A DNA stretch of 64,000 nt. Source: Methylomonas paludis (GTDB lineage: Bacteria > Pseudomonadota > Gammaproteobacteria > Methylococcales > Methylomonadaceae). A program made the position numbers and the translations under genes. The stretch covers positions 1,426,001 through 1,490,000 of the forward strand of contig NZ_CP073754.1 in NCBI RefSeq assembly GCF_018734325.1. Direction: 5' to 3'. Below are positions 5,515 through 62,302 of the stretch, one piece after another. The notes under the pieces were generated by a model. That model had not been told where the DNA came from. It saw only the letters and a list, made by a program, of their open reading frames with translations, and did not search any database. The first letter of the stretch is position 1. Each line of letters opens with the position of its first letter.

Positions 5515-5545
5515 CCTCGATTCCGCGTTGCTGCATCGAGGCTAC
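5515..5545 (+). repeat. REP element, family A
   Basis: Arms CCTCGAT and ATCGAGG enclose a 13-nt loop (TCCGCGTTGCTGC), followed by CTAC (GTAG on the other strand). It is preceded by GGCGGCCTACAT, as in the copy at 46424. Confidence 0.8.
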
Positions 5546-5640
5546 GTTTGCATTTTTGTTCACCTTTATAAGCAGAAATCAGCCGTCATTACTCTGCGTA
5601 ACTTTGCTTGAACAGTTTAAATAAGTATCTGGCTTCGATT

Positions 5641-5671
5641 GATGCGCTGCACTGCGTTTAGCTGATCCTAC
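5641..5671 (+). repeat. REP element, family B
   Basis: Left arm GATGCGC, loop TGCACTGCGTTTA, a partly mismatched right arm (GCTGATC) and the CTAC tail. It has the same 31-bp plan as family A. Confidence 0.65.
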
Positions 5672-5895
5672 CACTAGCTGTTTTGTATGGATGCTGAGTG
5701 CTGATATATAGCCTTTAAAAAACTTAAATTCTCCCCAATATTTCGGCATAATTTGCGGTGTTTGCTGGTGGCTACGGATTTTTTTCGGGAAAAAAGCCTC
5801 TAACAGCTTGTTTAGCCCGATCAGGACGTGAGGTGCTGATTTTTTTTGCAACTAAATGCTAGTATTTTCCGGCTATTAGGCGTAAGTTGGGCTAA

Positions 5896-5914
5896 ATATA
5901 ATGGTTATCATTCC
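5896..5914. promoter_or_regulatory. Possible Fur-box-like operator upstream of degP
   Basis: The sequence ATAATGGTTATCATT matches 13 of 15 positions of the central Fur consensus. It lies about 90 bp before the degP start. This is a single weak match without further support. Confidence 0.25.
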
Positions 5915-5999
5915 ATTAGGGGTGATTATGCACATTGGGCGGCGATCAGCACACCCCCGGTATGGAAAGTTTTTTTATTTATCATGATTTGGAGTCAAC

Positions 6000-7415
6000 A
6001 TGCTTAGAAAGCTGTTTTATGGAATAGGTATTTTCTTTTTGCTGAGTAATACCGGCTTTGCTCAGTTGCCGGATTTTACTGAAATGGTTAAAAACAACGG
6101 CGATGCGGTGGTTAATATCAGTACCACTCAAAAAGCGCCGGATGCCCAAATTCCGGGAGCCGATCAGCAACAACAACTGCCGCAGGATGTCCCGCCGGAA
6201 ATGGAAGAATTCTTCCGCCGCTATTTTCAAGGCCCAGGCCGGGGTGGGGTGGTGCCGCGTGAAACCAATTCGCTGGGTTCCGGTTTTGTGATTTCCAAAG
6301 ACGGTTATATTCTGACCAATTCTCATGTTGTGAATAACGCTTCTGAAATTATTGTTAAACTCAAAGACCGCCGCGAACTGGTGGCTAAATTGATAGGTCT
6401 GGATGAGAGCAGTGATGTGGCTTTGCTTAAAGTCGAAGCCAAAGACCTGCCGATTGTGGAAATCGGCTCGCCCGATCAATTACAGGTTGGTGAATGGGTA
6501 TTGGCTATCGGTACGCCATTTGGCTTCGATCAGTCGGTGACTGCCGGTATTGTCAGCGCCAAGGGCCGCAGCTTGCCGGACGGTAATTATGTGCCGTTCA
6601 TTCAAACCGATGTGGCTATCAATCCCGGTAACTCCGGTGGCCCTTTATTCAATATGCAGGGTAAAGTGGTGGGTATCAATTCTCAAATCTACAGCCGTTC
6701 CGGCGGTTATATGGGCTTGTCTTTCGCCATCCCTATCGATCTGGCTATGAATGTGGTGGAACAGATCAAAACCAAGGGTAAAGTCTCACGCGGCTGGTTG
6801 GGTGTACAGATTCAGGATGTTACCCGGCAATTGGCCGAGTCTTTTGGTATGGACAGACCGCACGGTGCGCTGGTTGCCAAAGTGATTCCCGGTGGCCCTG
6901 CTGAAAAAGCCGGTTTGCAAATCGGTGACGTGATTGTTGAATTCAACGGTCAGGTGGTGGAAACTTCCGGCGAATTGCCGCCACGGGTGGGTGTCACACC
7001 AATAGATGAAGCCGCTAAACTGAAAATTATTCGTCAGGGTGAAAAACAGGATATCAGCGTTAAAATCGGCTTGCTGCCGGCGCAACAGGCGGTGGCTCAG
7101 GCTAATGACACTACCTCACCTGCCGATACTGCCAATAATCGTTTGGGTATCAGCGTCAGTGATTTGACTGCCGAACAGCGCCAGCAATTACAGGTGGAGA
7201 AAAATGGGGTGCTGGTGCAGAAAGTGGGCAAGGGTGCTGCGCAGGATATCGGCATTCAACCCGGTGATGTGATTTTGCGCTTGCAAAATTCTAGCGTGCG
7301 TGATAGTGCTGAATTTAATAAACTGGTCAATAAGTTGCCGGCCGGTAAATCCATCGCTGTGCTGGTGCAACGCAACGGTAATCCTTTGTTTTTGGCATTT
7401 AAATTGGAAAAATAA
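6000..7415 (+). CDS. degP: Periplasmic serine protease/chaperone Do (DegP/MucD)
   Basis: This 471-residue HtrA-family protein degrades or refolds damaged envelope proteins in the periplasm. A signal peptide (about residues 1-21, ending GFAQ) is followed by a trypsin-like domain with catalytic triad His109 (TNSHVV), Asp139 (SSDVALLKV) and Ser212 (GNSGGP). PDZ1 (about 265-350) and PDZ2 (about 375-465) follow. The start is supported by GGAG 7 bp upstream of the ATG. cysM begins 19 bp after the stop, so the two are probably co-transcribed. The length is normal for MucD-type proteins. Confidence 0.95.
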   Translation: MLRKLFYGIGIFFLLSNTGFAQLPDFTEMVKNNGDAVVNISTTQKAPDAQIPGADQQQQLPQDVPPEMEEFFRRYFQGPGRGGVVPRETNSLGSGFVISKDGYILTNSHVVNNASEIIVKLKDRRELVAKLIGLDESSDVALLKVEAKDLPIVEIGSPDQLQVGEWVLAIGTPFGFDQSVTAGIVSAKGRSLPDGNYVPFIQTDVAINPGNSGGPLFNMQGKVVGINSQIYSRSGGYMGLSFAIPIDLAMNVVEQIKTKGKVSRGWLGVQIQDVTRQLAESFGMDRPHGALVAKVIPGGPAEKAGLQIGDVIVEFNGQVVETSGELPPRVGVTPIDEAAKLKIIRQGEKQDISVKIGLLPAQQAVAQANDTTSPADTANNRLGISVSDLTAEQRQQLQVEKNGVLVQKVGKGAAQDIGIQPGDVILRLQNSSVRDSAEFNKLVNKLPAGKSIAVLVQRNGNPLFLAFKLEK

Positions 7416-7434
7416 AGTCAGGTGAGGAGCTGCA

Positions 7435-8343
7435 ATGCCTAATGCAAGTAATCTAACGCAACTTATAGGCAATACTCCGTTACTTAAACTGCAACGCCTG
7501 GTCGATGCAGATTCGGCAACGGTACTGGTGAAACTAGAGTCGCGCAATCCCGGCGGCTCGGTTAAGGACAGAATAGGCATGGCGATGATCCAGGCTGCGG
7601 AAAAAGCCGGCAGGCTGAAATCCGGCGGCACAATAGTGGAGCCTACTTCTGGAAATACCGGTATTGCTTTGGCGATGATTGCTGCGGTACGGGGTTATCA
7701 TTGCATCCTCACCATGCCGGATACCATGTCGGTGGAACGGCGGCAATTATTGGCCCTGTATGGGGCGGAAATTGTGTTGACCCCAGGGGCGGAAGGCATG
7801 ACCGGAGCCATCCGCAAGGCCCAGGCTATTGTCGAGCAAACTGCCGGGGCGTTTATGCCTCAGCAGTTTGAAAATCCGGCTAACCCGGAAATTCATCGTC
7901 AGACCACGGCGCAGGAAATCTGGTCGGCTACCGGTGGGCAAATTGATGCGTTTGTGTGTGGTGTCGGTACCGGTGGCACTATTTCCGGTGTGGCTGATGT
8001 GATTAAAAACCGTAATCCGCATTTTCAGGTTATTGCTGTGGAGCCTGCCGAGTCGCCGGTTATTTCCGGTGGCGTGCATAGTCCGCATAAAATTCAGGGC
8101 ATAGGTGCGGGGTTTATTCCCAAAAATCTGGATGTGGATTTGATAGATGCTATTGAACTGGTCAGCACGGAACAGGCTTTTGCTACCCGTAAGCAGTTGA
8201 TGCAAAGCGAAGGCATTTTAGCCGGGATTTCTTCCGGAGCCAGCGTTTATGCGGCTTTGCGGGTTGCCGCTCGATTAGGGAAAGGTAAAACGGTGGTGAC
8301 TATTATTCACGATACGGGTGAGCGGTATTTGAGTATGGGTTGA
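7435..8343 (+). CDS. cysM: Cysteine synthase B (O-acetylserine sulfhydrylase, CysM type)
   Basis: This 302-residue PLP enzyme makes cysteine from O-acetylserine and sulfide or thiosulfate. The PLP lysine is Lys44 in GGSVKDRIG, the substrate loop is TSGNTG (about 71-76), and the phosphate-binding GTGGTISG follows. Length and C-terminus (HDTGERYLSMG) match CysM rather than CysK. A good ribosome-binding site (GAGGAG) precedes the ATG. It follows degP closely. After the stop comes a REP array and then a terminator at 8844-8873. Confidence 0.93.
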   Translation: MPNASNLTQLIGNTPLLKLQRLVDADSATVLVKLESRNPGGSVKDRIGMAMIQAAEKAGRLKSGGTIVEPTSGNTGIALAMIAAVRGYHCILTMPDTMSVERRQLLALYGAEIVLTPGAEGMTGAIRKAQAIVEQTAGAFMPQQFENPANPEIHRQTTAQEIWSATGGQIDAFVCGVGTGGTISGVADVIKNRNPHFQVIAVEPAESPVISGGVHSPHKIQGIGAGFIPKNLDVDLIDAIELVSTEQAFATRKQLMQSEGILAGISSGASVYAALRVAARLGKGKTVVTIIHDTGERYLSMG

Positions 8344-8390
8344 GGGCTTAGCGTTTGGTGGTTTTGGGTTTGCTGCTGATTTGTTGGAAT

Positions 8391-8830
8391 GTTAGAGGTT
8401 TTGGTGGACTGGTGGCGAATCCAGTTTTTCTACTTTGCCAGAGGCTGTGCTGTGTATTCCTCGATTCCACTGCGTTGCATCGAGGCTACGGGGTGGTTTG
8501 TGGTAGCAAAAGGTCAAACGGGCTGAGAGGTTTTTGGGGGGGGGGCTGGTGGCGAATTCGGCTTGCCTACTTTGCCAGAGGCTGTGCTGTGTATCCCTCG
8601 ATTCCACTGCGTTGCATCGAGGCTACGGGGTGGTTTGTGGTAGCAAAAGATTAAACGGGCTGAGAAGTTTTTTTGGGGGGGTGGCGAATCCAGTTTTTCT
8701 AATTTGCCAGAGGCTGTGCTGTGTATCCCTCGATTCCACTGCGTTGCATCGAGGCTACGGGGTGGTTTGTGGTAGCAAAAGGTTAAATGGGCTGAGAAGT
8801 TTTGGGGGGTGGCTGGTGGCGAAAACGCCA
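8391..8830 (+). repeat. Tandem array of about 135-bp units, each with a family A REP
   Basis: Three and a half units begin with GGTGGCGAA at 8411, 8548, 8680 and 8815. Each full unit holds GCCAGAGGCTGTGCTGTGTAT, one REP (8459-8489, 8596-8626, 8728-8758), GGGTGGTTTGTGGTAGCAAAA and a poly-G run of 6-10 bases. The unit lengths of 137, 132 and 135 differ mainly in the G run. Reading frames across it are repeat-coded and not genes. Confidence 0.9.
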
Positions 8831-8843
8831 ATCGTTTTTTTAG

Positions 8844-8873
8844 GGGATAACCGGTCCCGGTTATCCCTTTTTT
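8844..8873 (+). terminator. Rho-independent terminator after cysM and the REP array
   Basis: GGGATAACCGG pairs with CCGGTTATCCC and is followed by six T residues on the plus strand. It ends right at the stop codon of the convergent PEP-CTERM gene. No matching T run is found on the other strand. Confidence 0.85.
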
Positions 8874-8874
8874 A

Positions 8875-9465
8875 TTAGCCGTTTTGGCTTGACTTGCGCC
8901 GTGCAGCCCAAGCCAGCATGGGCAGGCCCAGCAGCAATAAGGCTGATTGATCTGCTTCAGGCACGGAAGTGGCTGCTGTGATCAGTGCGACTTTAGCGGA
9001 AACGTCCCAGTCGGCGTCATTAAACCCGATCTCATTACCCAGAAAGCCGACAAAGTGGCCGGATAAATTGTGCAGCGGGGTAAAGCTGGCGGTGACGGTT
9101 TGATTGTGCCAATGGGCGGTCAAGGTATAGACGTTATTCTCGCCACCATTGTAAAAGTCGTCATAATCCTTTTGAAAAGGGGTGCCTGTTTGGCCGAAGT
9201 AGGTGATTACGCTGTGACCGGGCGCGACATTGTTAGCGTTCAAAGTTCCGACAAAACTACCGCCGCCATCGCCTGTGAAAACCACATTAGTCAGATCGAA
9301 GCCGCTGGTATTTTCAATCGTAAAAGAACTGCCGCCATCTGCCACATAGGTGGCGATAATGTCGCCGATAACAATACTGGCGGTAGCGTTGCCGGAGAGC
9401 GCCAGTATTACGGCAGATAAAAGTGATTTAGCTAACATTTGACCTTTAATAGTTTTAACAATCAT
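8875..9465 (-). CDS. PEP-CTERM sorting domain protein
   Basis: This 196-residue secreted protein has an N-terminal signal peptide (hydrophobic about residues 12-28, ending GNATA). Its C-terminal sorting signal starts VPEADQS, followed by a hydrophobic helix and the basic end ARRKSSQNG. In PEP-CTERM systems exosortase removes this tail in the inner membrane and the protein goes to the exopolysaccharide-rich surface. The middle is a beta-rich, low-complexity domain with Gly, Asn, Thr and no recognised catalytic motif. The ATG at 9465 is preceded by CAGGA. No exosortase gene is in the window. The cargo function is unknown. Confidence 0.82.
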   Translation of the reverse strand: MIVKTIKGQMLAKSLLSAVILALSGNATASIVIGDIIATYVADGGSSFTIENTSGFDLTNVVFTGDGGGSFVGTLNANNVAPGHSVITYFGQTGTPFQKDYDDFYNGGENNVYTLTAHWHNQTVTASFTPLHNLSGHFVGFLGNEIGFNDADWDVSAKVALITAATSVPEADQSALLLLGLPMLAWAARRKSSQNG

Positions 9466-9760
9466 AAAAATCCTGTTGGTGGCTTAACGTATATTATTTT
9501 CTGGTTAAGTGTCCATGTTGTTTGCGCCTTGGTAACATTCCGTTTAAACAAGGTGTATATTAATCGATAATTTATAGGCAACTATAAGCATAACACATGC
9601 CAGTTTGTTTTAGGCGGTTTTTGGGCTTAAATGCCGCAAAATGACCACTAAACTGCGTATTTTGCTGTCATAACTTGACAAATGCGTGACATTATAGGAG
9701 TTTGTTATGCCAAATTTGGCAGATGCAATGCTTATTGCTGCATTTATTAGTTTATCATGA

Positions 9761-9796
9761 TAATAAGTATAAATACCTAGGTATTTATACTTATTA
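9761..9796. repeat. Perfect 36-bp AT-rich palindrome
   Basis: Two 18-bp arms are exact reverse complements with no spacer; the centre is ACCTAGGT and the ends are TAATAAG and CTTATTA. The symmetry stops at 9760/9797. It could be a cruciform, a dimeric protein-binding site or a bidirectional terminator without a loop. No neighbour explains it. Confidence 0.95.
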
Positions 9797-9887
9797 ATGT
9801 GAACAAAGTCTCAATTTAGAAATATTGGTGGCTTGCCTGGCGGCAAATCCACCTTAGCTACCTAGTGGTTTGCCGGCAGCGCCAAAG

Positions 9888-9953
9888 GATGTGCCGACTC
9901 CGCAGGCGCATGGTGTGCGATTGATGCGCATCACTGCGTTCAGCGCATCCTAC
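9888..9953 (+). repeat. Extended repeat with family B REP, copy 1
   Basis: It starts with GGATGTGCCGACTC and ends with the best family B REP (9923-9953): arms GATGCGC and GCGCATC, loop ATCACTGCGTTCA, tail CTAC. It repeats 118 bp further on. Confidence 0.85.
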
Positions 9954-10005
9954 GCCTTATCCGTTATATCACATTGGCGTATCAATAGTAGTCGACCGAT
10001 CTTTT

Positions 10006-10072
10006 GGATGTGCCGACTCTGCGGGCGCATGGTGTGCGAATGATGCGCATCACTGCGTTGGACATATCCTAT
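10006..10072 (+). repeat. Extended repeat with decayed family B REP, copy 2
   Basis: This is a direct copy of 9888-9953 over the first 58 bp. The REP (10042-10072) has lost arm complementarity (GATGCGC against ACATATC). The following AGGTATCCGTCAAAATAAG recurs in similar form at 48291-48309. Confidence 0.8.
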
Positions 10073-10110
10073 CAGGTATCCGTCAAAATAAGATTGGTCA
10101 ACCACTGGTT

Positions 10111-12617
<2,507 letters not shown>

Positions 12618-12686
12618 TTTATATATCCCAATCGCACAAAACGCCCCGGTGACGGAGCGTTTTGGCCGCTTGTTGAATGATGTGGC

Positions 12687-23882: not shown

Positions 23883-24006
23883 TATTATTCTCCAAAAAAC
23901 TCAAACAGGAAAAGCCCAACAGCAATGCTTCCATAATTGATGAAAATGTCAAGTTTGGGGGTGTTAAATTTTGGGGTGGGGGCAAGGCGATAGCCGGTTT
24001 ACGGGG

Positions 24007-24089
24007 GGCGGCGATGCCAGCTACGATAGAACAAAATTGGGGATCGCAGAATGCTGGGTATCGCGTTGCTCTACCCAGCCTACAGCTTA
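24007..24089 (+). repeat. 83-bp direct repeat, left copy (includes RAYT 3' end and a REP)
   Basis: It matches 24730-24812 without gaps and with 3 mismatches. The repeat contains the last 13 codons of the RAYT gene plus a family C REP (24053-24083). Confidence 0.95.
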
Positions 24090-24125: not shown

Positions 24126-24156
24126 GTAGGCTGGGAGGAGCAACGCGATACCCAGC
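24126..24156 (-). repeat. REP element, family C, inverted copy
   Basis: GTAG followed by arms GCTGGG and CCCAGC in the opposite orientation to the copy at 24053, forming a convergent REP pair (BIME-like) just upstream of the RAYT gene. Confidence 0.85.
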
Positions 24157-24238: not shown

Positions 24239-24769
24239 ATGCGTAATTATATTCGTAGTTATTCAAAAGGCGGCAGCTATTTCTTTACTGTCAACCTAGC
24301 CCAGCGCAAACAAAATGATTTATTGATCCGGCATATCGACGAATTACGCAATGCCTGCCGCTATATCCAACAACGTCATCCTTTGGTCATTGAAGCGATG
24401 GTGGTGTTGCCGGAACATTTGCATTGTATTTGGCGCTTACCTGAAGGTGACGATGCTTATTCCTTACGTTGGCGTTTATTAAAAGCCCATTTTTCCAGAC
24501 ACATTGACAGGGGTGAAACCATTTCTGCCAGCCGGTTACGAAAAAACGAACGCGGCCTCTGGCAGCGGCGGTATTGGGAACACCAGATTCGTGATGACAC
24601 GGATTTTCAGAGGCATTTGGATTATATCCATTACAATCCAGTCAAACATGGCTATGTGAAAAATGCAGCGGATTGGCCTTATTCATCTATTCATCGCTGG
24701 ATTAAATTAGGGGTCTATACCAAGGATTGGGCGGCGATGCCGGCTACGATAGAACAAAATTGGGGGTAG
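24239..24769 (+). CDS. rayT: REP-associated tyrosine transposase (RAYT, IS200/IS605-like)
   Basis: This 176-residue Y1-transposase-fold protein cuts and joins single-stranded REP hairpins. The HUH motif appears as PEHLHCIW (His-hydrophobic-His), and the catalytic Tyr region is HLDYIHYNPVKHGYV. The C-terminus WPYSSIHRW is a RAYT signature. Such single-copy genes are bounded by REPs of their own family, exactly as seen here. Their last codons are duplicated upstream. Confidence 0.92.
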   Translation: MRNYIRSYSKGGSYFFTVNLAQRKQNDLLIRHIDELRNACRYIQQRHPLVIEAMVVLPEHLHCIWRLPEGDDAYSLRWRLLKAHFSRHIDRGETISASRLRKNERGLWQRRYWEHQIRDDTDFQRHLDYIHYNPVKHGYVKNAADWPYSSIHRWIKLGVYTKDWAAMPATIEQNWG

Positions 24770-24812
24770 CAGAATGCTGGGTATCGCGTTGCTCTACCCA
24801 GCCTACAGCTTA
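24730..24812 (+). repeat. 83-bp direct repeat, right copy (includes REP 24776-24806)
   Basis: It covers the 3' end of the RAYT gene and the downstream family C REP: arms GCTGGGTA and TACCCAGC, loop TCGCGTTGCTC, tail CTAC. Confidence 0.95.
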
Positions 24813-24917: not shown

Positions 24918-25181
24918 ATGTTTATGGTTACCATTAGTTCTGTCGAGCTGCAAAGACATTTTGGGCATTACCAAGATGTTGCGCTTACTGAGCCTGTTGC
25001 TGTTACCCGCAATGGTCGTGAGCGTGTCGTCATAATATCTGTTGATGAGTACAACAGATTGAAGCGGCGAGATCGCCAAGTGTTAAGTATTGACGATTTT
25101 ACCGAAACAGATTTACAAAAAATTATGGATTCTGAGCCACCAGTCGAAGCCGCCGCTTTCAACTCTGAATTTAAAGGCTAG
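24918..25181 (+). CDS. Phd/YefM family antitoxin
   Basis: This 87-residue antitoxin begins VTISSVELQRHFGHYQD and carries the family motif AVTRNGRERVVIISVDEYNRL. Phd-type proteins bind DNA through the N-terminus and the toxin through the disordered C-terminus. It is directly followed by a PemK/MazF-like gene, an uncommon but known antitoxin-toxin pairing. Confidence 0.85.
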   Translation: MFMVTISSVELQRHFGHYQDVALTEPVAVTRNGRERVVIISVDEYNRLKRRDRQVLSIDDFTETDLQKIMDSEPPVEAAAFNSEFKG

Positions 25182-25185
25182 TGTT

Positions 25186-25623
25186 TTGGCGCTTCCTAAA
25201 CCTGTTCCTGCTATGGTGATTCGCTATTCTTATTTGTGGCATTCGGAATATCTGCGCGGCAAAGAAGAAGGCTTAAAAGACAGGCCATGCGCTGTGATTC
25301 TGGTGACTTACGATGATGATGGTGAAGAAATTGTCACCGTACTCCCTATAACCCATACCCAGCCATCAAATCCGGATTTAGCGGTAGAAATTCCATACCA
25401 AACCAAGCAGCGTTTAGGCTTAGATAGCGATCTTTGTTGGATCATATTGACGGAAGTCAATCGCTTTAGGTGGCCTGGCCCTGATTTGCGTATCGCAAAT
25501 TCAGCAGACAATGCCACTGTTAGCTATGGATTATTACCAAGTAATTTGTTCAATGAAGTTAAACGCAAGCTACATATTGTTGTTAATGCTCGTTTGACCA
25601 ATATCATAAAAAGAACTGAATAG
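25186..25623 (+). CDS. PemK/MazF-like toxin
   Basis: This protein of about 145 residues resembles PemK/MazF-family mRNA interferases: RPCAVILVTYDDDGEE, TVLPITHTQPSNPDLAVEIP, CWIILTEVNRFRWPGPDLR and a C-terminal helix. The best start is TTG at 25186, 4 bp after the antitoxin stop, or ATG at 25213. A frame starting at 25090 would overlap the antitoxin by 90 bp and is unlikely. A 12-bp hairpin at 25706-25735 lies downstream. Confidence 0.75.
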   Translation: MALPKPVPAMVIRYSYLWHSEYLRGKEEGLKDRPCAVILVTYDDDGEEIVTVLPITHTQPSNPDLAVEIPYQTKQRLGLDSDLCWIILTEVNRFRWPGPDLRIANSADNATVSYGLLPSNLFNEVKRKLHIVVNARLTNIIKRTE

Positions 25624-32339: not shown

Positions 32340-32776
32340 GCTTATATATCTCCGTTTTAGGCTTTAATGTCTATTCGTTATTTTGAAAGTTGTAGGAATA
32401 GAAAGCAGCCTTTATTTATAAAACTTTAGCGGGTGTCAGGGGTTAATGGTACTTGCTTAATAAGTCAATTCTGGTAATTCTTCACAGCAACCCCAATCCT
32501 GATAGCCTTAATCCTCGATTCCGCGTTGCTGCATCGAGGCTACGCTGGCAGATGAATGATGCTTTTAGTGCATCGTACCACTGCATATTCAGGTGGGTGT
32601 CGTTGGCTATTTCAGTTGGGAGCGCCGAAAAATCAGGTATTTACGGCATCAGTGCTCATCACTCCGGATGCGAGTCGGGGTTAGTCCTGCCGATTTGAAA
32701 ATTCATGGCGCTATTGTATCAAGATAAGCAGGGATAATGTAAATCCAGACCTTAGGATTTGCCGGGTGCAGCCGGT
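32340..32776. other. Intergenic region between fbp and thiE
   Basis: The 437 bp hold one family A REP (32513-32543) and otherwise nothing recognised. The fbp promoter must lie in the left part. Confidence 0.5.
32513..32543 (+). repeat. REP element, family A
   Basis: Arms CCTCGAT and ATCGAGG, loop TCCGCGTTGCTGC, tail CTAC; identical to the 5515 copy. Confidence 0.8.
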
Positions 32777-44964: not shown

Positions 44965-45287
44965 TGCTTAGCCTGCATGACGTTTTGCTGGTTCGATACT
45001 ACTTGAGTAGGCAGTGAAAGCGCTGTTATCGTCATATCTGTAGCCTACATCCTCGATTCCGCGCTGCTGCGTCGAGGCTACGTCTCAATGTTAGGTACAT
45101 TGTTGATTAAGCAGGGTAGGGTGGATTCGCCGTTAGGCAACCCACCAAGCTTGGCGGGTATTTGGCGTTTGGCTATTTCAAAAATGTTCTATGGGGATGT
45201 GGTTTACATCGAATGCGACAGATGCGACTTCTGGGGGCGACGCATCCTCTATTTATGTTTTAGTGGTGTTGTTTAAGTCGGCCCAGT
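44965..45287. other. Intergenic region with a REP
   Basis: These 323 bp hold a family A REP at 45051-45081. A 62-codon frame at 45088 lacks protein features and is not supported. Confidence 0.5.
45051..45081 (+). repeat. REP element, family A, with an arm mismatch
   Basis: CCTCGAT with right arm GTCGAGG and loop TCCGCGCTGCTGC, tail CTAC; preceded by GCCTACAT. Confidence 0.75.
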
Positions 45288-46128: not shown

Positions 46129-46226
46129 TAACGCAAACATGGCCTTGATTAATCGGTGTTGTCTAGACCTTGGCAGCCTACATCCTCGATTCCGCGTTGC
46201 TGCATCGAGGCTACGCTGGGTCTTTT
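46129..46226 (+). repeat. 98-bp direct repeat, copy 1 (with REP 46184-46214)
   Basis: It begins TTAACGCAAACAT and contains a family A REP. It matches 46369-46466 with a few mismatches and no gaps. Confidence 0.9.
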
Positions 46227-46257: not shown

Positions 46258-46288
46258 GTAGCCTCGATGCAAGGTAGCGGAATCGAGG
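46258..46288 (-). repeat. REP element, family A, inverted
   Basis: GTAGCCTCGAT read on the plus strand, i.e. opposite orientation to the flanking REPs; the loop is GCAAGGTAGCGGA. Confidence 0.8.
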
Positions 46289-46368: not shown

Positions 46369-46466
46369 TAACGCAAACATGGCTTTGATTAATCGGTGTT
46401 GGCTAGGTCTTGGCGGCCTACATCCTCGATTCCGCGTTGCTGCATCGAGGCTACGCTGGGTTTTTT
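46369..46466 (+). repeat. 98-bp direct repeat, copy 2 (with REP 46424-46454)
   Basis: Same as copy 1, 240 bp downstream. The GTAG of its REP supplies the stop codon (TAG, 46453-46451) of the PEP-CTERM gene. Confidence 0.9.
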
Positions 46467-51556: not shown

Positions 51557-51729
51557 GTTTGTTATATCCTTCTGTTTATATATCCTAACAACAGTATATG
51601 ACAGCTTGAAGACAATGCTGTTTTAACTATTCAGGGTAGCTTCTATGGATCATTGCCGAATCGCGGCGTTATTTAGCAAATGGCTTTGCAGCATCCTGTC
51701 GCATTTTTAGGTAACTCTGCTGCGATGTG

Positions 51730-51760
51730 CCTCGATTCCACTGCGTTTCATCGAGGCTAC
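51730..51760 (+). repeat. REP element, family A
   Basis: Arms CCTCGAT/ATCGAGG with loop TCCACTGCGTTTC and CTAC tail, upstream of arsR. Confidence 0.8.
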
Positions 51761-51774
51761 AGGGTTTACTCTAG

Positions 51775-54024: not shown

Positions 54025-54108
54025 GGTGCACCTCAAGTTAAACTTTAAGTTGTTGTTATTATAAGTTTGTAACTATTCACCGTAATGATAATGGCTAGGC
54101 TGGGTATC

Positions 54109-54139
54109 CCTCGATGCCACCACCTTGCATCGAGGCTAG
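54109..54139 (+). repeat. REP element, family A, with CTAG tail
   Basis: CCTCGAT/ATCGAGG arms, loop GCCACCACCTTGC, tail CTAG instead of CTAC. Confidence 0.7.
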
Positions 54140-54284
54140 GGTGTGCTTGGTTGCCCGATAGGCAAGCCAGCAAAACTTTGTTTGCGGTTCAAAATCTATC
54201 ATGCTCTGATTGCCAAGTAAATATAAATGTAATTAATCAGCCGCATTTTTGCCGATTATTTTTAAACAAATGCTTAGCTGTGAA

Positions 54285-54315
54285 TGATGCGCTGCACTGT
54301 GTTTAGCATATATTA
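54285..54315 (+). repeat. REP element, family B, decayed
   Basis: GATGCGC left arm with GCATATA right arm and TTAC tail. Confidence 0.5.
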
Positions 54316-54441
54316 CAACTGCCTATTTAAGGGGATATTTGGGCGATGAATAGTGACATATAAATAAAGTTTAGCCGAATTAAATCGTTTCAGATAACCG
54401 TCATGGATTAATTTGCATATAGGCTAATAGAGTGGCGATAT

Positions 54442-54924
54442 TCAGGGTAAGTGATTGCCCTCAGCGGATACTCCCCAGTGCTGAGCCAGATAATCGCGTC
54501 TGGTGATAAAAATCTGCTGTAGTTTGGGGCCGATTAACAATCTGTCCAACCAATCCCCCAGCCAGCCCCAGGGCATGGCGTAATAGACAATATCTTCCAG
54601 CTTAATGCCTTCTGCACAGGGGGTGATACACACCTCATGACTCCAGAAGTTAAACGGGCCAACCCGCTGCTGATAGACAAAACGCTGGGGACGCTGGCAG
54701 TGGCAAACCTCCGATAGCCAGGCCATAGGCCAGCCGGCCACCGCCTTCATCCGATAACTGATCATCAGCCCGGCATAAATATCATCCGGTACCGGCGAAG
54801 TGATCTCTACATGAAAAAACGCCGGGGTAATGTCATTCAGATGATAAGGCGAGGAAAAAAACGCCCAGGCTTGCTCTGGGTTTAAGGCTAGGGTTTGGGC
54901 AAAATAAAGATGATGGATTTTCAT
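54442..54924 (-). CDS. SRPBCC-type ligand-binding protein
   Basis: This 160-residue protein has the START/SRPBCC fold pattern: N-terminal strand, helix (LNPEQAWAFFSSPYHLNDITP), a set of strands (RFVYQQRVGPFNFWSHEVCITP), and a C-terminal helix with FITRRDYLAQHWG. Such proteins bind small hydrophobic ligands. Its start codon overlaps that of the divergent SOUL-type gene. Confidence 0.75.
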   Translation of the reverse strand: MKIHHLYFAQTLALNPEQAWAFFSSPYHLNDITPAFFHVEITSPVPDDIYAGLMISYRMKAVAGWPMAWLSEVCHCQRPQRFVYQQRVGPFNFWSHEVCITPCAEGIKLEDIVYYAMPWGWLGDWLDRLLIGPKLQQIFITRRDYLAQHWGVSAEGNHLP

Positions 54925-55789: not shown

Positions 55790-55839
55790 ATATGTTGAAT
55801 TGCGCTGATGCTGGTTTGGTTAAGGCTGTGCTGCGAATT

Positions 55840-55870
55840 CCTCGATTCCACTGCGTTGCATCGAGGCTAC
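55840..55870 (+). repeat. REP element, family A
   Basis: CCTCGAT/ATCGAGG arms, loop TCCACTGCGTTGC and CTAC tail. It is followed by CTAACGCAAACAT, as also seen before other REP repeats. Confidence 0.8.
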
Positions 55871-55954
55871 GGGTTGCGATGATGCGGGGTGTATGCATCA
55901 ACTAACGCAAACATAGTATTTTAAAGAGGTTCTTAGGGGCTGAATAGTTTCAAT

Positions 55955-56329
55955 ATGATGATGTTATTGCTGGTGGCGCACGGTAGCCGCCGAGATGAAT
56001 CTAATGCCGAGGTTAAGGCTCTGGCCAATCAGTTGCTGAGTGCCGAGAGCGGTTTTGCCGATATCGATTGCGCTTTTCTGGAAATTGCCCAGCCTTCCAT
56101 TCCTGATGGGTTAAGGCAATTAATTGCCAAGGGTGCCTTGGAAATTGTGGTGATGCCGTATTTTTTATCCGCCGGACGCCATGTCAGCAGCGATATTCCG
56201 GCAGAGATAGAGCAAGTCAGGGTAGAGCATCCTGAGATTAATATTCGTATGGCACCTTATTTGGGGGCCAGCGCTGAAATTGCCCAGATTGTTATGCAGC
56301 AGGCTAGTAGCGTGCTGCAGGAGATATAG
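55955..56329 (+). CDS. cbiX: CbiX-type sirohydrochlorin chelatase, small form
   Basis: This 124-residue protein has VAHGSRRDESN with the metal-binding His, and YFLSAGRHVSSDIP with a second. The short form acts as a homodimer and inserts Co2+ or Fe2+ into sirohydrochlorin. It stands between a SOUL-type gene and a peroxiredoxin. No other tetrapyrrole genes are adjacent. Confidence 0.85.
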   Translation: MMMLLLVAHGSRRDESNAEVKALANQLLSAESGFADIDCAFLEIAQPSIPDGLRQLIAKGALEIVVMPYFLSAGRHVSSDIPAEIEQVRVEHPEINIRMAPYLGASAEIAQIVMQQASSVLQEI

Positions 56330-56341
56330 GCTGTCGCTCAT

Positions 56342-56372
56342 GATTCGCTTCACTGCGTTCAGCATATCCTAT
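56342..56372 (+). repeat. REP element, family B, decayed
   Basis: GATTCGC, loop TTCACTGCGTTCA, GCATATC, CTAT. It lies 13 bp after the CbiX stop. Confidence 0.6.
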
Positions 56373-56419
56373 ACCTAACTTCTGCCAACATTTTAACCCG
56401 TACAGCGAGGTGTATTCAG

Positions 56420-56959
56420 ATGAAAATATTGACTAAGCTATTAAAACAGTTCGCTTTGTTACTCACCTGCCTGCCGTTTATCCCGGCAGCGCTGGCCCAG
56501 CCTTTGAGCGTAGGTCAGGCCGCGCCCTTGTTTACGATCAAAACTCAGGACGGCAGTGATTTCAATTTGGTAGATCGCCGTCAGCAGGGTTGGACAGTGT
56601 TATATTTTTACCCCAAAGCCGGGACACCGGGTTGCACCACCCAGGCTTGTGCCTATCGAGATGCCATTCAGGCGGTGCGCAAGCAAAATGCCGAAGTGTT
56701 TGGCATCAGTACCGATGGGGTTGCCGATCTGCGCGATTTTCAGCAAAAACATAAATTGGGTTTTACTTTGCTATCCGATCCGGGCGCTCTGGTAACCACG
56801 GAGTATGGTGTGAAAATGCCGGTGTTGAAAATGGCCAAGCGCTGGACTTTTATCCTGGATCCGGAACTTAAGGTGCGCTATATTGACGACAATGTCGATC
56901 CGGCGCTGGATGCGCTGAAAGTGGCTGACATCTTAAAAAATCTGCAAGCCCAGCCCTGA
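56420..56959 (+). CDS. Exported peroxiredoxin (BCP/PrxQ type)
   Basis: This 179-residue protein has a signal peptide (to PAALAQP) and a thioredoxin fold with peroxidatic Cys72 and resolving Cys77 (PGCTTQAC). It reduces peroxides in the periplasm. The VLYFYPKAGTPGCT motif and FTLLSDPGALVTTEYGV region are typical of PrxQ. Confidence 0.92.
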   Translation: MKILTKLLKQFALLLTCLPFIPAALAQPLSVGQAAPLFTIKTQDGSDFNLVDRRQQGWTVLYFYPKAGTPGCTTQACAYRDAIQAVRKQNAEVFGISTDGVADLRDFQQKHKLGFTLLSDPGALVTTEYGVKMPVLKMAKRWTFILDPELKVRYIDDNVDPALDALKVADILKNLQAQP

Positions 56960-56993
56960 CTTGATCAGGGCTGGTAAGCGGGTATAGCCGGCT

Positions 56994-59735
56994 TTAGAGC
57001 GGCTGATTCTCCAGCAATTTGGCATGAGCCGCCGCCAGCCGGGCAATGGGGATGCGTGGCGCCGAGCAGGAAACATAATCCAGGCCCATATCATGACAGT
57101 AGCGGATAGAACGCGGGTGACCGCCGTGTTCGCCGCAAATGCCGATGCGTAAATCCGGGCGCTGTTTGCGGCCCAGTTCCACCGCCATTTGCATCAGCTT
57201 GCCCACGCCCAGAATATCTAGGGTTTCAAACGGGTTGTCGTGTAACAGGCCGGATTCTTCATACAGCGGCAGGAATTTGTTTTCGGCATCCTCGCGCGAA
57301 AATGAAAAAGTGGCCTGGGTTAAATCATTGGTGCCAAACGAGAAGAATTGGGCAATTTCAGCCAGATGGTCGGCGCGAGTGCAAGCGCGGACTGTTTCTA
57401 TCATGGTGCCGAATTTAAAATTCAGCTTCAGCCGATACTGATCTTCTAGTTCAGCCTGAATTTCATCGACAAACTGTTTTACTTTTAACAACTCCTTGGA
57501 GCTGATGACCTGCGGTACCATAATTTCCGGCTCTACTGGTATGCGTTGTTTGATACAACGCGCTGCCGCTTCCAGGATTGAACGGATCTGCATTTTATAG
57601 ATTTCCGGATGACTCATGCCCAGCCGCACCCCACGATGGCCGAGCATGGGATTGACTTCGTACAACTCCAGCACTTTTTTCAGCATCAACTGCTTTTTGG
57701 CGATGGCTTCCAGTACCAGTTCTTCGGTGAGCCGGTTGAATGGTGGTGGCAGTTCGTTAGGCAGGTTGAAGGTTTCCAGCGCTACTTGTTGGCCTTTGAC
57801 AATGGTCAGGTAATGTTTCAGGGCATTGATTTCTTCCAGCAACTGATGTTCGCTGGGTAGAAACTCATGCATAGGCGGGTCCAGCAGCCGTACTGTGACC
57901 GGGTGCGGGGACATGGCTTCAAACAATTGCTGAAAATCGTCGCGCTGAATCGGAAACAGCTTGGCTAGCGCAGTCTCGCGGGCTTCGGTGTTGCCGGCCA
58001 GGATCATTTCCACTACCAGCGGTAAACGGTCGGAAGCGTTAAACATACGCTCGGTACGGCATAAGCCGATGCCTTTGGCACCGTAACTGACGGCCAGCCG
58101 TGCGGTTTCCGGGGTATCAACATTGGCGTAGATTTGCAGTCGCGCCACTTTGTCGGCCCAGTTCAAAATTACTTTGAGTTCTTCAGAAAATGACGGAGCG
58201 ATGGTCGGAATCCGGCCCAGATAGATATTGCCGTTACTGCCGTCTATGGTCAGCAAATCGCCTTCCTTGATGTGAATATCACCAACTATGGCTTGACGGG
58301 TGCGCACATCGATATGAATGTCTTCCGCTCCGGCCACACAGGCTTTGCCCATGCCCCGCGCCACCACTGCGGCATGGGAGGTTTTGCCGCCCCGGCTGGT
58401 CAAAATACCCTGGGCGGCAAAAAAGCCGTGAATGTCTTCGGGTTTGGTTTCTTCGCGCAGCAAGATAACCTCTACGCCGGTTTTAGCCAGTCTTACCGCG
58501 CTGTCGGCATCAAACACACATTTGCCGCAAGCTGCGCCGGGGGAGGCCGGTAAGCCCTGCGCCAAGGGTTTTTGATTATGGCTAGGCTCCAGTTGCGGAT
58601 GCAGCATTTGTTCCAGCATTTCCGGGTTGATGCGCAGCAAGGCCCGCTCTTTGCTGATCAGGCCTTCTTTGACCATATCAATGGATGATTTGACCATGGC
58701 GGCGGCATTCATTTTACCGTTGCGGGTTTGCAGGCAATATAGTACCCCACGCTCTATGGTGTATTCATAGTCCTGCACTTCCTGATAATGCGCTTCCAGC
58801 TTATTGCGCAATTCCACCAGTTGCCGGTATTGCGACGGCATTTCATAAAACATGTCCTGCACCGGCTTGGGGGTGCGGATGCCGGCGACCACGTCCTCGC
58901 CCTGGGCATTGACCAGATATTCGCCAAACATCTCATTAACGCCGGTGGCTGGATTGCGGGTAAATCCCACGCCGGTGGCGCAGTCGTCGCCCATATTGCC
59001 GAATACCATCATTACGATATTCACTGCCGTGCCATTGGCAATATCCGGGGTAATATGAAATTCACGGCGGTAATCCAGCGCGCGGCGACCCAGCCAGGAA
59101 TTGAACACGGCCTTGATGGCAATTTCCAACTGTTCATAAACATCATGCGGAAAAGGCTGGCCGGTTTCTTCATAAACCACCTGCAAAAATAGCTCACAAA
59201 TTTCTTGCAGCTGTTCGCTGTTCAGCGCTACATCGGCTTTGATGCCGGCATTGCGTTTTACGCTGTTGAAATGCAGGTCAAATTTCTCATCGGCGATACC
59301 TAGCGCCACCTTGCCGAACAACTGGATAAAGCGCCGGTAGGCATCGTAAGCAAAACGAGCATCATCGGTCAGCTCTATCAGTCCGGCCAGCGTTTGCTTG
59401 TTTAAACCCAGGTTGAGGATGGTGTCCATCATCCCCGGCATGGACACCGCGGAACCGGAACGTACCGAAACCAGCAGCGGATCAATCTCTCCACCGAATT
59501 GTTTGCCGGTGCTTTGTTCGATCAGGCCAATCTGGCGGCGTACATCCTCCATCAGCCCGACAGGCAGGGTCTTGTGTTCCAGATAACTGAGGCAGGTTTC
59601 GGTGGTTATCACAAACCCCGGCGGTACATTCAGGCCCAACTGCGTCATTTCGCAAAGATTGGCGCCTTTGCCGCCCAGTAAGGCCTTGTTTTTGCCGTCA
59701 CCTTGGTCAAATGAGTAGCTGTATTGTGAAATCAT
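56994..59735 (-). CDS. ppdK: Pyruvate, phosphate dikinase
   Basis: This 913-residue enzyme interconverts pyruvate plus ATP and Pi with PEP, AMP and PPi. The N-terminal ATP-grasp domain (KALLGGKGANLCEM), the phosphohistidine domain with GGKTSHAAVVARG (His454) and the TIM barrel with the C-terminal CGEHGG (Cys867) are complete. The GIGLCRTERMF and FSFGTNDLTQATF motifs are typical. It is a common enzyme in methanotroph carbon metabolism. It stands alone. Confidence 0.97.
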   Translation of the reverse strand: MISQYSYSFDQGDGKNKALLGGKGANLCEMTQLGLNVPPGFVITTETCLSYLEHKTLPVGLMEDVRRQIGLIEQSTGKQFGGEIDPLLVSVRSGSAVSMPGMMDTILNLGLNKQTLAGLIELTDDARFAYDAYRRFIQLFGKVALGIADEKFDLHFNSVKRNAGIKADVALNSEQLQEICELFLQVVYEETGQPFPHDVYEQLEIAIKAVFNSWLGRRALDYRREFHITPDIANGTAVNIVMMVFGNMGDDCATGVGFTRNPATGVNEMFGEYLVNAQGEDVVAGIRTPKPVQDMFYEMPSQYRQLVELRNKLEAHYQEVQDYEYTIERGVLYCLQTRNGKMNAAAMVKSSIDMVKEGLISKERALLRINPEMLEQMLHPQLEPSHNQKPLAQGLPASPGAACGKCVFDADSAVRLAKTGVEVILLREETKPEDIHGFFAAQGILTSRGGKTSHAAVVARGMGKACVAGAEDIHIDVRTRQAIVGDIHIKEGDLLTIDGSNGNIYLGRIPTIAPSFSEELKVILNWADKVARLQIYANVDTPETARLAVSYGAKGIGLCRTERMFNASDRLPLVVEMILAGNTEARETALAKLFPIQRDDFQQLFEAMSPHPVTVRLLDPPMHEFLPSEHQLLEEINALKHYLTIVKGQQVALETFNLPNELPPPFNRLTEELVLEAIAKKQLMLKKVLELYEVNPMLGHRGVRLGMSHPEIYKMQIRSILEAAARCIKQRIPVEPEIMVPQVISSKELLKVKQFVDEIQAELEDQYRLKLNFKFGTMIETVRACTRADHLAEIAQFFSFGTNDLTQATFSFSREDAENKFLPLYEESGLLHDNPFETLDILGVGKLMQMAVELGRKQRPDLRIGICGEHGGHPRSIRYCHDMGLDYVSCSAPRIPIARLAAAHAKLLENQPL

Positions 59736-60051
59736 GATTTTCCTGGAGAGAACGAAATGCGCAGCGATTAACTCAAACCCGGCCCTGAGCAGGCCGGCCA
59801 GTCAATCGTCATTGTTATTAAATTATTATAGGGGGGATTTCAAGCTATAGGGTGCCGGTAGCAAAAAATACTGTGGATACGCTGTTATTTGGGCATTAAG
59901 CAGCCAACGATAATTCACAAACCGTAGCCTTGATGTAGCAAGGCGGGATCGTGGGTGAAGGCTGTTAATATCGCGATGACAGCGATTGTGAGGTTACGCT
60001 GTGAAGGCCCTCGATTCCACTACCTTGCATCGAGGCTACGGATTACCATTT
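59736..60051. other. Intergenic region with left copy of a module-flanking repeat
   Basis: These 316 bp hold a copy of a repeat (about 59966-60041) that reappears at 62102-62173. The copy includes a family A REP (60009-60039). No gene is seen. Confidence 0.6.
59966..60041 (+). repeat. About 75-bp direct repeat flanking the ATPase/MqsA module, left copy
   Basis: It contains TCGCGATGACAGCGATTGTG and a family A REP with the GCATCGAGG arm. Its partner at 62102-62173 differs at a few positions. Confidence 0.85.
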
Positions 60052-61476
60052 TCAATTGTCTAAACTGAGTAAAATGTTGGCACCCAAAATGTAGGTGTAG
60101 GCACTGGCTGGGATAAATTCAAAACGGATATCCCTATAAACTACTTTATTATCGGAAATGCTACGGCTGGTTATTAGCAAAGGCTGTTTGATGTGCGGAT
60201 GTTTAGCAAAAAAATCCACACAATTATCCAGTTCGCCACGGGCTTTATAAGGCCGGTCACTCCATTTAATTTCGACCACCCAATCAGGTGCTTGTACGGC
60301 ATTATTCATATGTACGATATCAATTTCCCCACCAGACCAGCGGGCGTAATATAACTGTACTTGTTTACTATGTTGCCATTGGCTGAAAACGGCAGTTTCG
60401 GTCAGGGCGCCCATTGCCGGGGATTCCGGATCTATCTGGCCAAATAAAGCGGCACGCATTGAGGGATTGCTTAAATAAACCTTAAAATTCATCGCTCGCG
60501 TAAAGCGTTTGGCGTTTTGATCGATGCGTTCAACGCGTTTGATTAAAAATGCGGCTTCCAAATATTCCAGATAGCGTTTGATGGTGTTTTTGGCAACGCC
60601 GGATGATTTGGATAAACCTTCCAGGCTGACTTCGTTGCCGGTGTTGTAAGCCAGGATGGTAAACAGCCGGTTTAACTCCTGAATATCGTTAATGCCGTAG
60701 AGGCTGGGCAGGTCACGCAATAAAACTTTATCAATAATATCGCTTTTAATGTATTGCTCTGGATTACGGCGGATGGTTTCCGAAAACACCGCTTCCGGAT
60801 AGCCGCCGTAGTTTAGATAGTTGATAAACTCCTGGTTCAGTCCAGCAATATCTTTAACAATAGGGGGCTTTGAGGTAGGTGCGTCATGCTCGATTAGCTC
60901 AGCTATGCGGCCTATGAATAACAAATATTCGGCAAAGGTCAAAGGCGGCAATATATAGTTGCTAAATCGGCCTGCACCGGATTCCTGACTTTTTAAACGT
61001 AAAGCCGCAGCCGCAGAACCGGTGGCGACAAAGCGGTAGTCCGGGTAGGAGTCTACTAAGGATTTTAAGTGGATTTCCCAATCCTTCAAATACTGGATTT
61101 CGTCAAAAAAAACATACAGTGTCGCATCACGCTGGTGGGCAAACAGTTCCTGAAAATAGCTCAGAATCCCGGCCAGCGCCAAGCCGGTGTAGATAGGCGT
61201 TTCCAAAGAAACATAGAGTATAGTGTTTGCGGCGATACCGCTATTCAGCAAGGCGCGTACCGAGTGGTAAACCATCACGGTTTTGCCGATGCGGCGTGGC
61301 CCCATCAATACGATGGCGCGGCGCACACTCAAGTCGGTGACACTGTTTTGAAAGCCGGCGAAATATAGGCGGCGCGGCGTATCCTGATAAGCAATTTTTC
61401 CTGCTGGGCCGGTCTCCCACCAGGGGTTGTCAAATTTTAGCCGGTTGATAATGTCCTGTTTGGCGATTTGCAGCAT
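60052..61476 (-). CDS. AAA-type ATPase with DUF4143-like C-terminal domain
   Basis: This 474-residue protein has Walker A GPRRIGKT (59-66), Walker B YVFFDEIQYL (Asp125, Glu126) and sensor ATGS. A winged helix follows, then a C-terminal nuclease-like region with GGEIDIV and DWVVEIKW, which resembles a PD-(D/E)xK motif. Proteins of this type are often mobile and sometimes linked to toxin-antitoxin or defence loci. Its exact role is unknown. It is flanked by a direct repeat. Confidence 0.8.
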   Translation of the reverse strand: MLQIAKQDIINRLKFDNPWWETGPAGKIAYQDTPRRLYFAGFQNSVTDLSVRRAIVLMGPRRIGKTVMVYHSVRALLNSGIAANTILYVSLETPIYTGLALAGILSYFQELFAHQRDATLYVFFDEIQYLKDWEIHLKSLVDSYPDYRFVATGSAAAALRLKSQESGAGRFSNYILPPLTFAEYLLFIGRIAELIEHDAPTSKPPIVKDIAGLNQEFINYLNYGGYPEAVFSETIRRNPEQYIKSDIIDKVLLRDLPSLYGINDIQELNRLFTILAYNTGNEVSLEGLSKSSGVAKNTIKRYLEYLEAAFLIKRVERIDQNAKRFTRAMNFKVYLSNPSMRAALFGQIDPESPAMGALTETAVFSQWQHSKQVQLYYARWSGGEIDIVHMNNAVQAPDWVVEIKWSDRPYKARGELDNCVDFFAKHPHIKQPLLITSRSISDNKVVYRDIRFEFIPASAYTYILGANILLSLDN

Positions 61477-61621
61477 AAAAAAACCATACTAAGATCAGAA
61501 GAGTGATCTTAGTATAAGAGTGTTTGGAATTAAGATCAATTGAATGATCTTGGTTTGTGGGGATGCCCTCAGCATGCGCCAGCCCTTGCGTAATTGAGTG
61601 ATAGAAGGGTTGTCAATGCTT

Positions 61622-61900
61622 TCAATATCGATATATGGCAGTAAATGACTCCATCGCCACGGGTTTAAAACCCGTTGGAGTTTTCTGTTGACTGATGATG
61701 GCGGCGTGTTCAGCTTCTATCGCTTTCAATACAGCGGCATCAAAATACTGTTCTCCACAGAAATTGCATTGAAGACACGGCGCATCGTCAATGATCAACA
61801 GTTCTTCGCCTTGTTGATGCCGATAACTGACGTTCTTGGGAGTTAAATGTTTATGACCACAAAAAGCGCAAACTTCGAACATAATGTTATCCCCGCTCAT
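61622..61900 (-). CDS. MqsA/YgiT-type zinc-finger protein
   Basis: This 92-residue protein has two CxxC zinc pairs (CAFC and CNFC) near the N-terminus and FEVCAFCGHKH typical of YgiT-type antitoxins. The C-terminus is short and lacks a clear HTH. No MqsR-type or DUF4258 toxin is visible upstream or downstream. The ATG at 61900 is used; an internal ATG at 61882 is possible. Confidence 0.65.
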   Translation of the reverse strand: MSGDNIMFEVCAFCGHKHLTPKNVSYRHQQGEELLIIDDAPCLQCNFCGEQYFDAAVLKAIEAEHAAIISQQKTPTGFKPVAMESFTAIYRY

Positions 61901-62302
61901 AAGGATTTTTGAATTTTGGTGGGGTTGGAATATATACGGTAATGATAAGCAGCCAAGCTATAGAAAACGCCAAGCATGGCAAGAAAGTCAATCCAGATGT
62001 CACCCCATAATCTGCAGGTAATCCTTTCTGAAGCGGCAAAAGCCGATGGCGTTGATATCCTTCAATGATGCAGTAACTTGGAATCTAGCTGGTAGGGTGT
62101 CGATATCGCGATGACAACGATTGTGAGGTTACGCTGCGAAGTCTTCGATTCCACTACCTTGCATCGAGCTACGGGGGTGATCAAAACAGCTGAGATGGTC
62201 TGGCAAATGTCTGCTGACGCACAACAATTTAGACACAGCCGCGCCGCTTGTGATAAATTGCAGGACAAGCAGCAGGACTGTCACTTAACATCCGAGGGTA
62301 TC
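61901..62302. other. Intergenic region between MqsA-like gene and gltA
   Basis: The 402 bp hold the right copy of the module-flanking repeat (62102-62173) with a damaged REP (62143-62172). No toxin-like frame is found next to the MqsA-like gene. Confidence 0.55.
62102..62173 (+). repeat. About 72-bp direct repeat flanking the ATPase/MqsA module, right copy
   Basis: It contains TCGCGATGACAACGATTGTG and a REP in which one G of the right arm is missing (ATCGAG followed by CTAC). Confidence 0.85.

Follow-up and report, generated by a model that had tools for sequence, protein, structure and literature searches.

A 64,000-nucleotide stretch of the 3.67-Mb, single-contig genome of Methylomonas paludis (NZ_CP073754.1, positions 1,426,001 to 1,490,000; hereafter the window) carries repeated short hairpins, here identified as repetitive extragenic palindromes (REPs), together with one gene for a REP-associated tyrosine transposase (RAYT). 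Searches by arm pattern with mismatches allowed recovered 15 copies of class A, five of class B, three of class C and one of class D, 24 in all, and a repeat-family comparison added one damaged class A copy; a first-pass annotation made from the letters alone had counted about 22 (Table 1). Perfect-arm matches numbered 12, 1 and 2 for classes A, B and C against means of 0.00, 0.01 and 0.00 in shuffled sequence, so the excess over chance is clear. The GTAG motif lies on the minus strand in 19 of the 24 copies. The placement of the copies between genes also held: two of the 24 overlap an open reading frame (ORF), a doubtful one of 114 aa, and across a sample of 979,508 bases (49 stretches, 27% of the genome; "the sample" below) 200 of 212 copies fell outside ORFs of at least 150 aa. 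The repeated hairpins are therefore confirmed as real REP copies and the annotation was right in substance, although several of its details changed. The 31-nt plan with GTAG (CTAC on the other strand) is shared by classes A, B and C, whereas class D measures 30–31 nt, class E 34 nt and class F 29 nt; the arms given for class B are intact in just one of its five copies in the window; and the interior of class A falls into two main types within the window.

Table 1. REP copies and the RAYT gene in the window (window coordinates; for REPs, the strand is the one bearing GTAG)
Feature	Position	Strand	Basis
REP class A2	5515..5545	-	arm pattern
REP class B, 2 mismatches	5641..5671	-	pattern
REP class A1, first of three head-to-tail copies	8459..8489	-	pattern
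REP class A1	8596..8626	-	pattern
REP class A1	8728..8758	-	pattern
REP class B, intact arms	9923..9953	-	pattern
REP class B, 5 mismatches	10042..10072	-	pattern
Copy of 24729-24775 (RAYT 3' end, 41 nt + 6 nt), joined to REP at 24053	24006..24052	+	84-nt duplicated unit, 96% identical
REP class C	24053..24083	-	pattern
REP class C, RAYT upstream flank, 2 mismatches	24126..24156	+	pattern
RAYT, 176 aa, class C REPs either side	24239..24769	+	NF047646 202.7 bits; Y1_Tnp at cut-off; five-RAYT profile vs 4er8
REP class C, RAYT downstream flank	24776..24806	-	pattern
REP class A2	32513..32543	-	pattern
REP class A2, 1 mismatch	45051..45081	-	pattern
REP class D, 2 mismatches	45116..45146	+	pattern
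REP class A2	46184..46214	-	pattern
REP class A, other interior	46258..46288	+	pattern
REP class A2	46424..46454	-	pattern
REP class A, 3 mismatches	51636..51666	+	pattern
REP class A1	51730..51760	-	pattern
REP class A, head CTAG	54109..54139	-	pattern
REP class B, 4 mismatches	54286..54316	-	pattern
REP class A1	55840..55870	-	pattern
REP class B, 3 mismatches	56342..56372	-	pattern
REP class A, 2 mismatches	59924..59954	+	pattern
REP class A, other interior	60009..60039	-	pattern
Damaged REP class A copy, missed by pattern	~62143..62172	-	repeat-family comparison (family D1)

The curated RAYT model NF047646 matched nine places in the genome. Six RAYT genes are open over the whole model (194.7–202.8 bits, cut-off 80), and two relics match just its second half. 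A profile of five RAYTs matched E. coli TnpAREP (4er8) with an E value of 6.8e-64, and H60, H62 and Y129, invariant in all five, would by their position be the histidine-hydrophobe-histidine (HUH) motif and the catalytic tyrosine. A divergent Y1 transposase relative of 276–277 aa at 3.6245 Mb has an HYH motif and reaches 85–87 bits with the RAYT model; its 3.3-kb locus showed no GTAG hairpin belonging to any known class.

Each of the six RAYT genes has a single REP class in its near flanks. The window RAYT, closest in the named collection to one from Methylomonas lenta (76%), lies between inverted class C REPs, and the class A RAYT at 1.356 Mb lies among REPs of the A3 interior type, with a plus copy upstream and a damaged minus copy downstream; classical inverted flanks were seen in these two cases only. 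The class D RAYT (2.385 Mb) and the class F RAYT (1.597 Mb; REP GTAGGATGTGGTGAGGCACGAACCGCATC) lie among REPs of their own class, and in both cases all copies found point one way. The class E RAYT (1.672 Mb) has one E copy 24 bp away and an opposite one 1.8 kb off, with a transposase-like ORF, recognised by eye, downstream of the gene and before this second copy. The class G RAYT (0.492 Mb) stands beside degenerate G copies with ATAG heads, the upstream one read by eye. The annotation's interpretation of the hairpins as RAYT-linked REPs is thus supported, and its suggestion that each class might have its own RAYT holds for A, C, D, E, F and G, though not for B.

We next compared the best 80 RAYT relatives among at least 565 confirmed. 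At 61 of these 80 loci, two or more GTAG or GTGG hairpins with the same arm occur within 900 bp; the commonest hairpin of every one of the 61 has GTAG and is 31 nt long at 22 loci, and 40 of the 61 loci have GTAG outward on both sides. The interiors were GA/GA or a near variant at 36 loci, a C-bulge at 10, A/G at seven, AA/GC at five and other types at three; among those hairpins at these loci that lack a preceding GTAG or GTGG, found with a somewhat different stem rule, 109 of 2311 were GA-like. A quick tree of 67 RAYTs requires 12 changes of internal-loop type, compared with a shuffled mean of 27.5 (0 of 200 shuffles as low). The window RAYT belongs to a set of seven (support 92), and the other six all have GCTGGG arms like those of class C. 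No end branch among the 67 is longer than that of the class A RAYT (1.13; median 0.31), although the tree tool did not flag it. The CCTCGAT arms of class A have no counterpart among the 61 related arms, of which 60 begin with G after GTAG. On this evidence, RAYTs and arm classes have diverged in step.

The "11–13 nt loop" of the first-pass annotation proved to be partly paired itself. The usual unit consists of GTAG, a lower stem of 7–8 bp, an internal loop with an A.G mismatch, an upper stem of 2–3 bp and a loop of 3–4 nt, with a bulged C replacing the internal loop in the class D variant. An alignment of 28 distinct 31-nt REPs (21 of the 22 related ones, one being a duplicate, a 31-nt copy from locus L021, and six from this genome) has as its only invariant columns GTAG, A14 and G22, which places an A.G mismatch directly below the upper stem. 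All 28 have a paired 2-bp upper stem, both pairs of which show two-sided changes; because it was not selected for, this stem is independent evidence of a folded strand. A second set, made of class A and genus relatives (34 variants, arms fixed, interior free), gave upper-stem pairing in 85.3% of cells and 23 two-sided cells, compared with 7.5 after shuffling and 0–4 in slid controls other than the one given below. In DNA folding the two-storey hairpin came out best for A1, A2, A3, C and D, but not for B. Since this structured "loop" is the irregular zone seen in group-2 REPs, these REPs are of a known kind. In E. coli, cleavage depends on the mismatches A12A13-G26C27, and the role of the upper stem is structural and non-specific (PMC8266576). 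An A.G that is invariant among 31-nt REPs with unrelated arms offers an interior position to mutate.

The annotation had also taken different arms with kept pairing as strong evidence of a selected hairpin. Covariation stands between families and in the upper stem; inside family A, none of seven outer pairs changed on both sides, a weak test because the variants were found with arms fixed to at most one mismatch. The outer arms of the 28 aligned REPs covary too, but the families were found by their palindromes, so that pairing between families is partly a matter of ascertainment.

Taken together, we consider these elements to be REPs of the group-2 kind, typified by E. coli TnpAREP, that fold and are mobilised by RAYTs, with a probability of roughly 93%. 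The copies, their classes, the RAYT flanks, the upper-stem covariation and the agreement of RAYTs with REPs on the tree are direct observations. As for mechanism, the single strand bearing GTAG would fold and be bound by the RAYT, which, by analogy with E. coli biochemistry, would cleave beside the hairpin and rejoin it elsewhere on single-stranded DNA; the replication fork may supply the single strand.

Several points weigh against this reading. One slid control (+3) gave 11 two-sided cells. Covariation of the outer arms is not independent evidence, since arms were chosen as palindromes. The invariance of A.G was read on 31-nt REPs only, the mismatch being absent from class D and from the C-bulge types. 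Folding energies were similar for the GTAG strand and the other strand (A1, −6.2/−5.2; C, −8.6/−7.8 kcal/mol), so the GTAG strand is not singled out. The RAYTs score at or slightly below the Pfam cut-off for Y1_Tnp, the class E RAYT (150 aa) lacks the C-terminal part of the others, and 32 of 64 inner branches of the tree are open. Classes C (19 copies), D (46) and E (4) stay under the usual figure of more than 100 copies. Two E copies are also found ∼0.6–0.75 kb beyond the class G RAYT on its downstream side, and 0.65 kb separates an A2 copy from the class F RAYT, so the rule of one class per RAYT is true of near flanks only. Lastly, class B has no flanking RAYT. Its arms differ from those of class F by one base pair of eight, and within the clade of the F RAYT (seven rows, support 84) one relative, L032, stands with a REP bearing arms of the B type; for these reasons the F RAYT is the best candidate for class B. 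The two RAYT relics (1217734–1217919 and 1553821–1554075) were considered as a lost class B RAYT, which was not supported, their nearest relative (L088) having CCTGGG arms; they resemble each other in their 3' ends and downstream DNA, and the relic at 1553821–1554075 is 63% identical to L088.

A different account would make the hairpins RNA elements, such as terminators or mRNA stabilisers, that transcript-level selection maintains, and would leave the RAYT link as incidental. Their intergenic placement is compatible with this, as is the ability of either strand to fold, but we regard it as very improbable: between adjacent genes on the same strand, 29 REP loci agree with gene direction and 24 oppose it, the constant GTAG is confined to one strand, a search of the window against Rfam gave no match at the gathering threshold, and copy number rises from 0–19 to 280 within one genus.

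That last contrast concerns class A. Genome-wide, it has 314 copies at ≤ 2 mismatches (160/154 by strand; 0 with the reversed pattern), of which 244 are exact in the fixed bases; 170 copies carry the A1 interior exactly and 59 carry A2/A3 at ≤ 1 mismatch. Class B has 125 copies (≤ 3 mismatches), class C 19 (29 rows at ≤ 2 mismatches minus 10 that are the other strand of the same palindromes), class D 46 exact copies and class E four, and the sample held eight copies of F and three matches of G, one of them with six mismatches. GTAG stands at the 5' foot of the imperfect palindrome, with 0 matches in reversed-pattern controls; class G heads read ATAG. More than 100 dispersed, intergenic copies are found for A and B. 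Among 36 genus relatives, six of them under 90% complete, class A has 0–6 copies in 35 genomes and 19 in one, compared with 280 here (all at ≤ 1 mismatch). Class A has thus expanded in this genome to about 300 copies, accompanied by an unusually divergent RAYT, and this combination of a fast-diverging transposase with a rise from 0–19 copies within one genus makes it a good model of a REP outbreak.

Inverted pairs of REPs are the basic unit of REP doublets forming hairpins (REPINs) and of bacterial interspersed mosaic elements (BIMEs), and single copies might be decayed halves of units that moved as pairs. At least nine class A pairs in the relatives do have GTAG outward, 48–50 bp apart. In this genome, however, 97 of the 110 neighbour pairs within 300 bp in the sample are head-to-tail, whereas seven are GTAG-outward and six GTAG-inward (13 inverted in all), and the flank consensus over independent loci (31 for A1, 23 for B, 18 for D) drops within ∼10 nt of the unit. 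Movement as pairs is therefore improbable here, if slightly less so than the RNA account. Two classes are mixed in 46 of the 97 head-to-tail pairs. Because the relatives have GTAG-outward class A pairs and few copies, the class A burst appears to have gone along with a switch in arrangement. At 1.5518–1.5531 Mb, a tandem array alternates A1 and D with a period of ∼250 bp.

The orientation of REPs also follows a regional pattern, which, like the head-to-tail arrangement, is unusual. We placed 382 copies on the chromosome (all exact D, A2/A3 and A1-minus copies, the 19 C copies, 64 of 76 A1-plus and 100 of 125 B; other A variants excluded). They form 174 loci in 35 same-orientation runs, where 88 were expected (z = −8.0), and the run test gave z = −2.6 after merging copies within 10 kb, a step that joins only like orientations. 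Borders between regions of opposite polarity lie at about 0.54–0.57, 0.62–0.70, 1.36–1.39, 1.49–1.50, 1.77–1.81, 3.04–3.23, 3.30–3.36 and 3.56–3.58 Mb. Loci of different classes agreed in 116 of 133 pairs at 2–10 kb and 247 of 280 at 10–30 kb, a combined 363 of 413 that none of 2000 within-class shuffles reached; agreement was 614 of 829 at 30–100 kb and about half at 100–900 kb. In 400 kb of E. coli K-12 with 49 copies, the same measure, taken over copies, gave 20/41 and 23/45 (43/86), and the split by arm was 21+/19− and 3+/6−.

Three candidate causes were rejected. Gene direction fails on the 29 same and 24 opposite loci given above. Skew at third codon positions (GC3 skew) seemed to matter over all 49 stretches (27+/44− where positive, 23+/15− where negative) but failed in an evenly spaced second sample (11+/8− and 7+/10−). 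Oligomer polarity trained on the data was overfitted on the training blocks and inconsistent on held-out ones. Plus and minus genes of one stretch often show similar GC3 skew, but along the chromosome the skew is patchy, unlike the FtsK-orienting polar sequences described below, which follow the two arms about the dif-like site.

Local spreading of each class by hops to near sites could produce polarity with no part played by replication. Concordance falls from 0.73–0.74 at 30–100 kb to ∼0.5 at 100–900 kb, the arrays are local, and a free two-arm scan places the best axis at 3.22 Mb rather than at the origin. Yet below 30 kb different classes agree (0.87–0.88) as well as copies of the same class do (0.80–0.91), and a strand property shared by the classes is therefore needed. 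We judge local spreading to be a serious contender that falls somewhat short of an even chance.

Our preferred, though unproven, explanation of the polarity is replication with later inversions. The insertion sequences IS608 and ISDra2 use the lagging-strand template (PMC6006769), and the observed REP orientation puts the GTAG strand on that template along the arm between the origin and 1.8 Mb. REP orientation switches at 3.56–3.58 Mb and 1.77–1.81 Mb, near the origin and its antipode rather than at dif. The dnaA gene, recognised by eye, is at base 1, and mnmG lies at 3.631 Mb. A dif-like site with three mismatches to the E. coli dif occurs at 2,046,842, ∼0.24–0.28 Mb from the REP switch, and in the sample FtsK-orienting polar sequences (KOPS) numbered 56 plus and seven minus before this site and 3/24 after it, up to 3.57 Mb. 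All 31 plus copies of exact class D lie between 3.57 and 1.80 Mb and the 15 minus copies elsewhere; when mismatches are allowed, one of 42 sampled D copies breaks the split (1.22 Mb, minus), and with the origin set at 3.65 Mb four plus D copies at 3.62–3.64 Mb break it too. Loci by arm were 86+/34− and 6+/48− with borders at 3.57 and 1.80 Mb, which were picked after seeing the data, 80/35 and 12/47 with the origin at 3.65 Mb and its antipode, and 80/51 and 12/31 with dif.

Replication arm was rejected as the whole explanation, and neither the free axis fit nor the run-preserving null supports a replication cause firmly. The free scan reached 94 with the origin at 3.22 Mb compared with 80 at 3.65 Mb, 12 of 173 circular rotations reached the observed value, and a run-preserving null gave p ∼0.06. 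Mostly minus blocks at 573–622, 1021–1117 and 1387–1494 kb, the last of which includes the window, interrupt the plus arm, and sampled KOPS around them stay plus (2:0, 9:1 and 7:2); a plus block occurs at 3227–3304 kb. In its fullest form, the replication account would have the GTAG strand of every class enter the lagging-strand template, with orientation as a fossil of fork direction. The orientation would flip near the origin and near the antipode (∼1.77–1.81 Mb), the expected meeting point of the forks, rather than at dif; other borders would be old inversions, and amplification would have switched from inverted pairs to single head-to-tail insertion. That complete chain is speculative, and we think it rather unlikely to be right in every part.

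Within the window, the class C REP at 24053 carries the end of the RAYT gene with it, which would reflect either copying beyond the REP or the stump of a second RAYT unit. Downstream of the RAYT, positions 24918–25623 include a Phd/YefM-family antitoxin (PF02604) and an overlapping ORF that is PemK-like by eye, with no Pfam match.

Several RAYTs per genome, each with its own REP family, are established (PMC2817692; PMC6006769). The mechanism of REP dissemination is described as "poorly understood" in a study based on in vitro assays (PMC8266576). Four features look new here: the arms of class A together with the divergence of its RAYT, the burst of head-to-tail copies, a regional polarity common to the classes, and the explicit identification of an invariant A.G position. 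For the last two, our literature search, which did not cover figures and supplements, met no prior account, and a search for repetitive extragenic palindromes in Methylomonas found nothing related. With several head-to-tail classes that share a polarity, a single-strand, replication-coupled route can be tested directly by counting.

The closest known system is E. coli REP/TnpAREP (RAYT group 2, subclass 2.2), which shares a homologous transposase, the GTAG head, and the succession of lower stem, mismatched zone and upper stem. By position in our own alignment, the A.G of the 31-nt REPs corresponds to A13.G26 of the E. coli bulge (PMC8266576). In place of AA/GC, our REPs have GA/GA, GCA/GGA or a bulged C in the interior, and the REPs of the 400-kb E. 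coli sample are mostly inverted pairs without regional polarity. The GTAG-3 and GTAG-14 families (Di Nocera et al. 2013, PMC3733652) likewise have modular stems and loops, with loops common to several species and non-complementary di- or trinucleotides under GC/GC or GGC/GCC loop ends; our elements differ from them, as there described, in their head-to-tail pairs (97 of 110). Stenotrophomonas REPs resemble ours in having several RAYTs per genus, each with its own REP, RAYT–REP co-divergence and inverted REPs around the RAYT, but three of the tabulated elements are palindromes of 24–25 nt with a short centre, where ours have an internal loop and an upper stem (PMC2817692). Tandem arrays of Pseudomonas fluorescens, in which GI–GIII elements lie head-to-tail, with forward arrays near 2 Mb and reverse ones near 4 Mb, are one precedent for regional polarity (PMC3116915); as described there, it covers two array types, whereas here it extends to most neighbouring copies of several classes.

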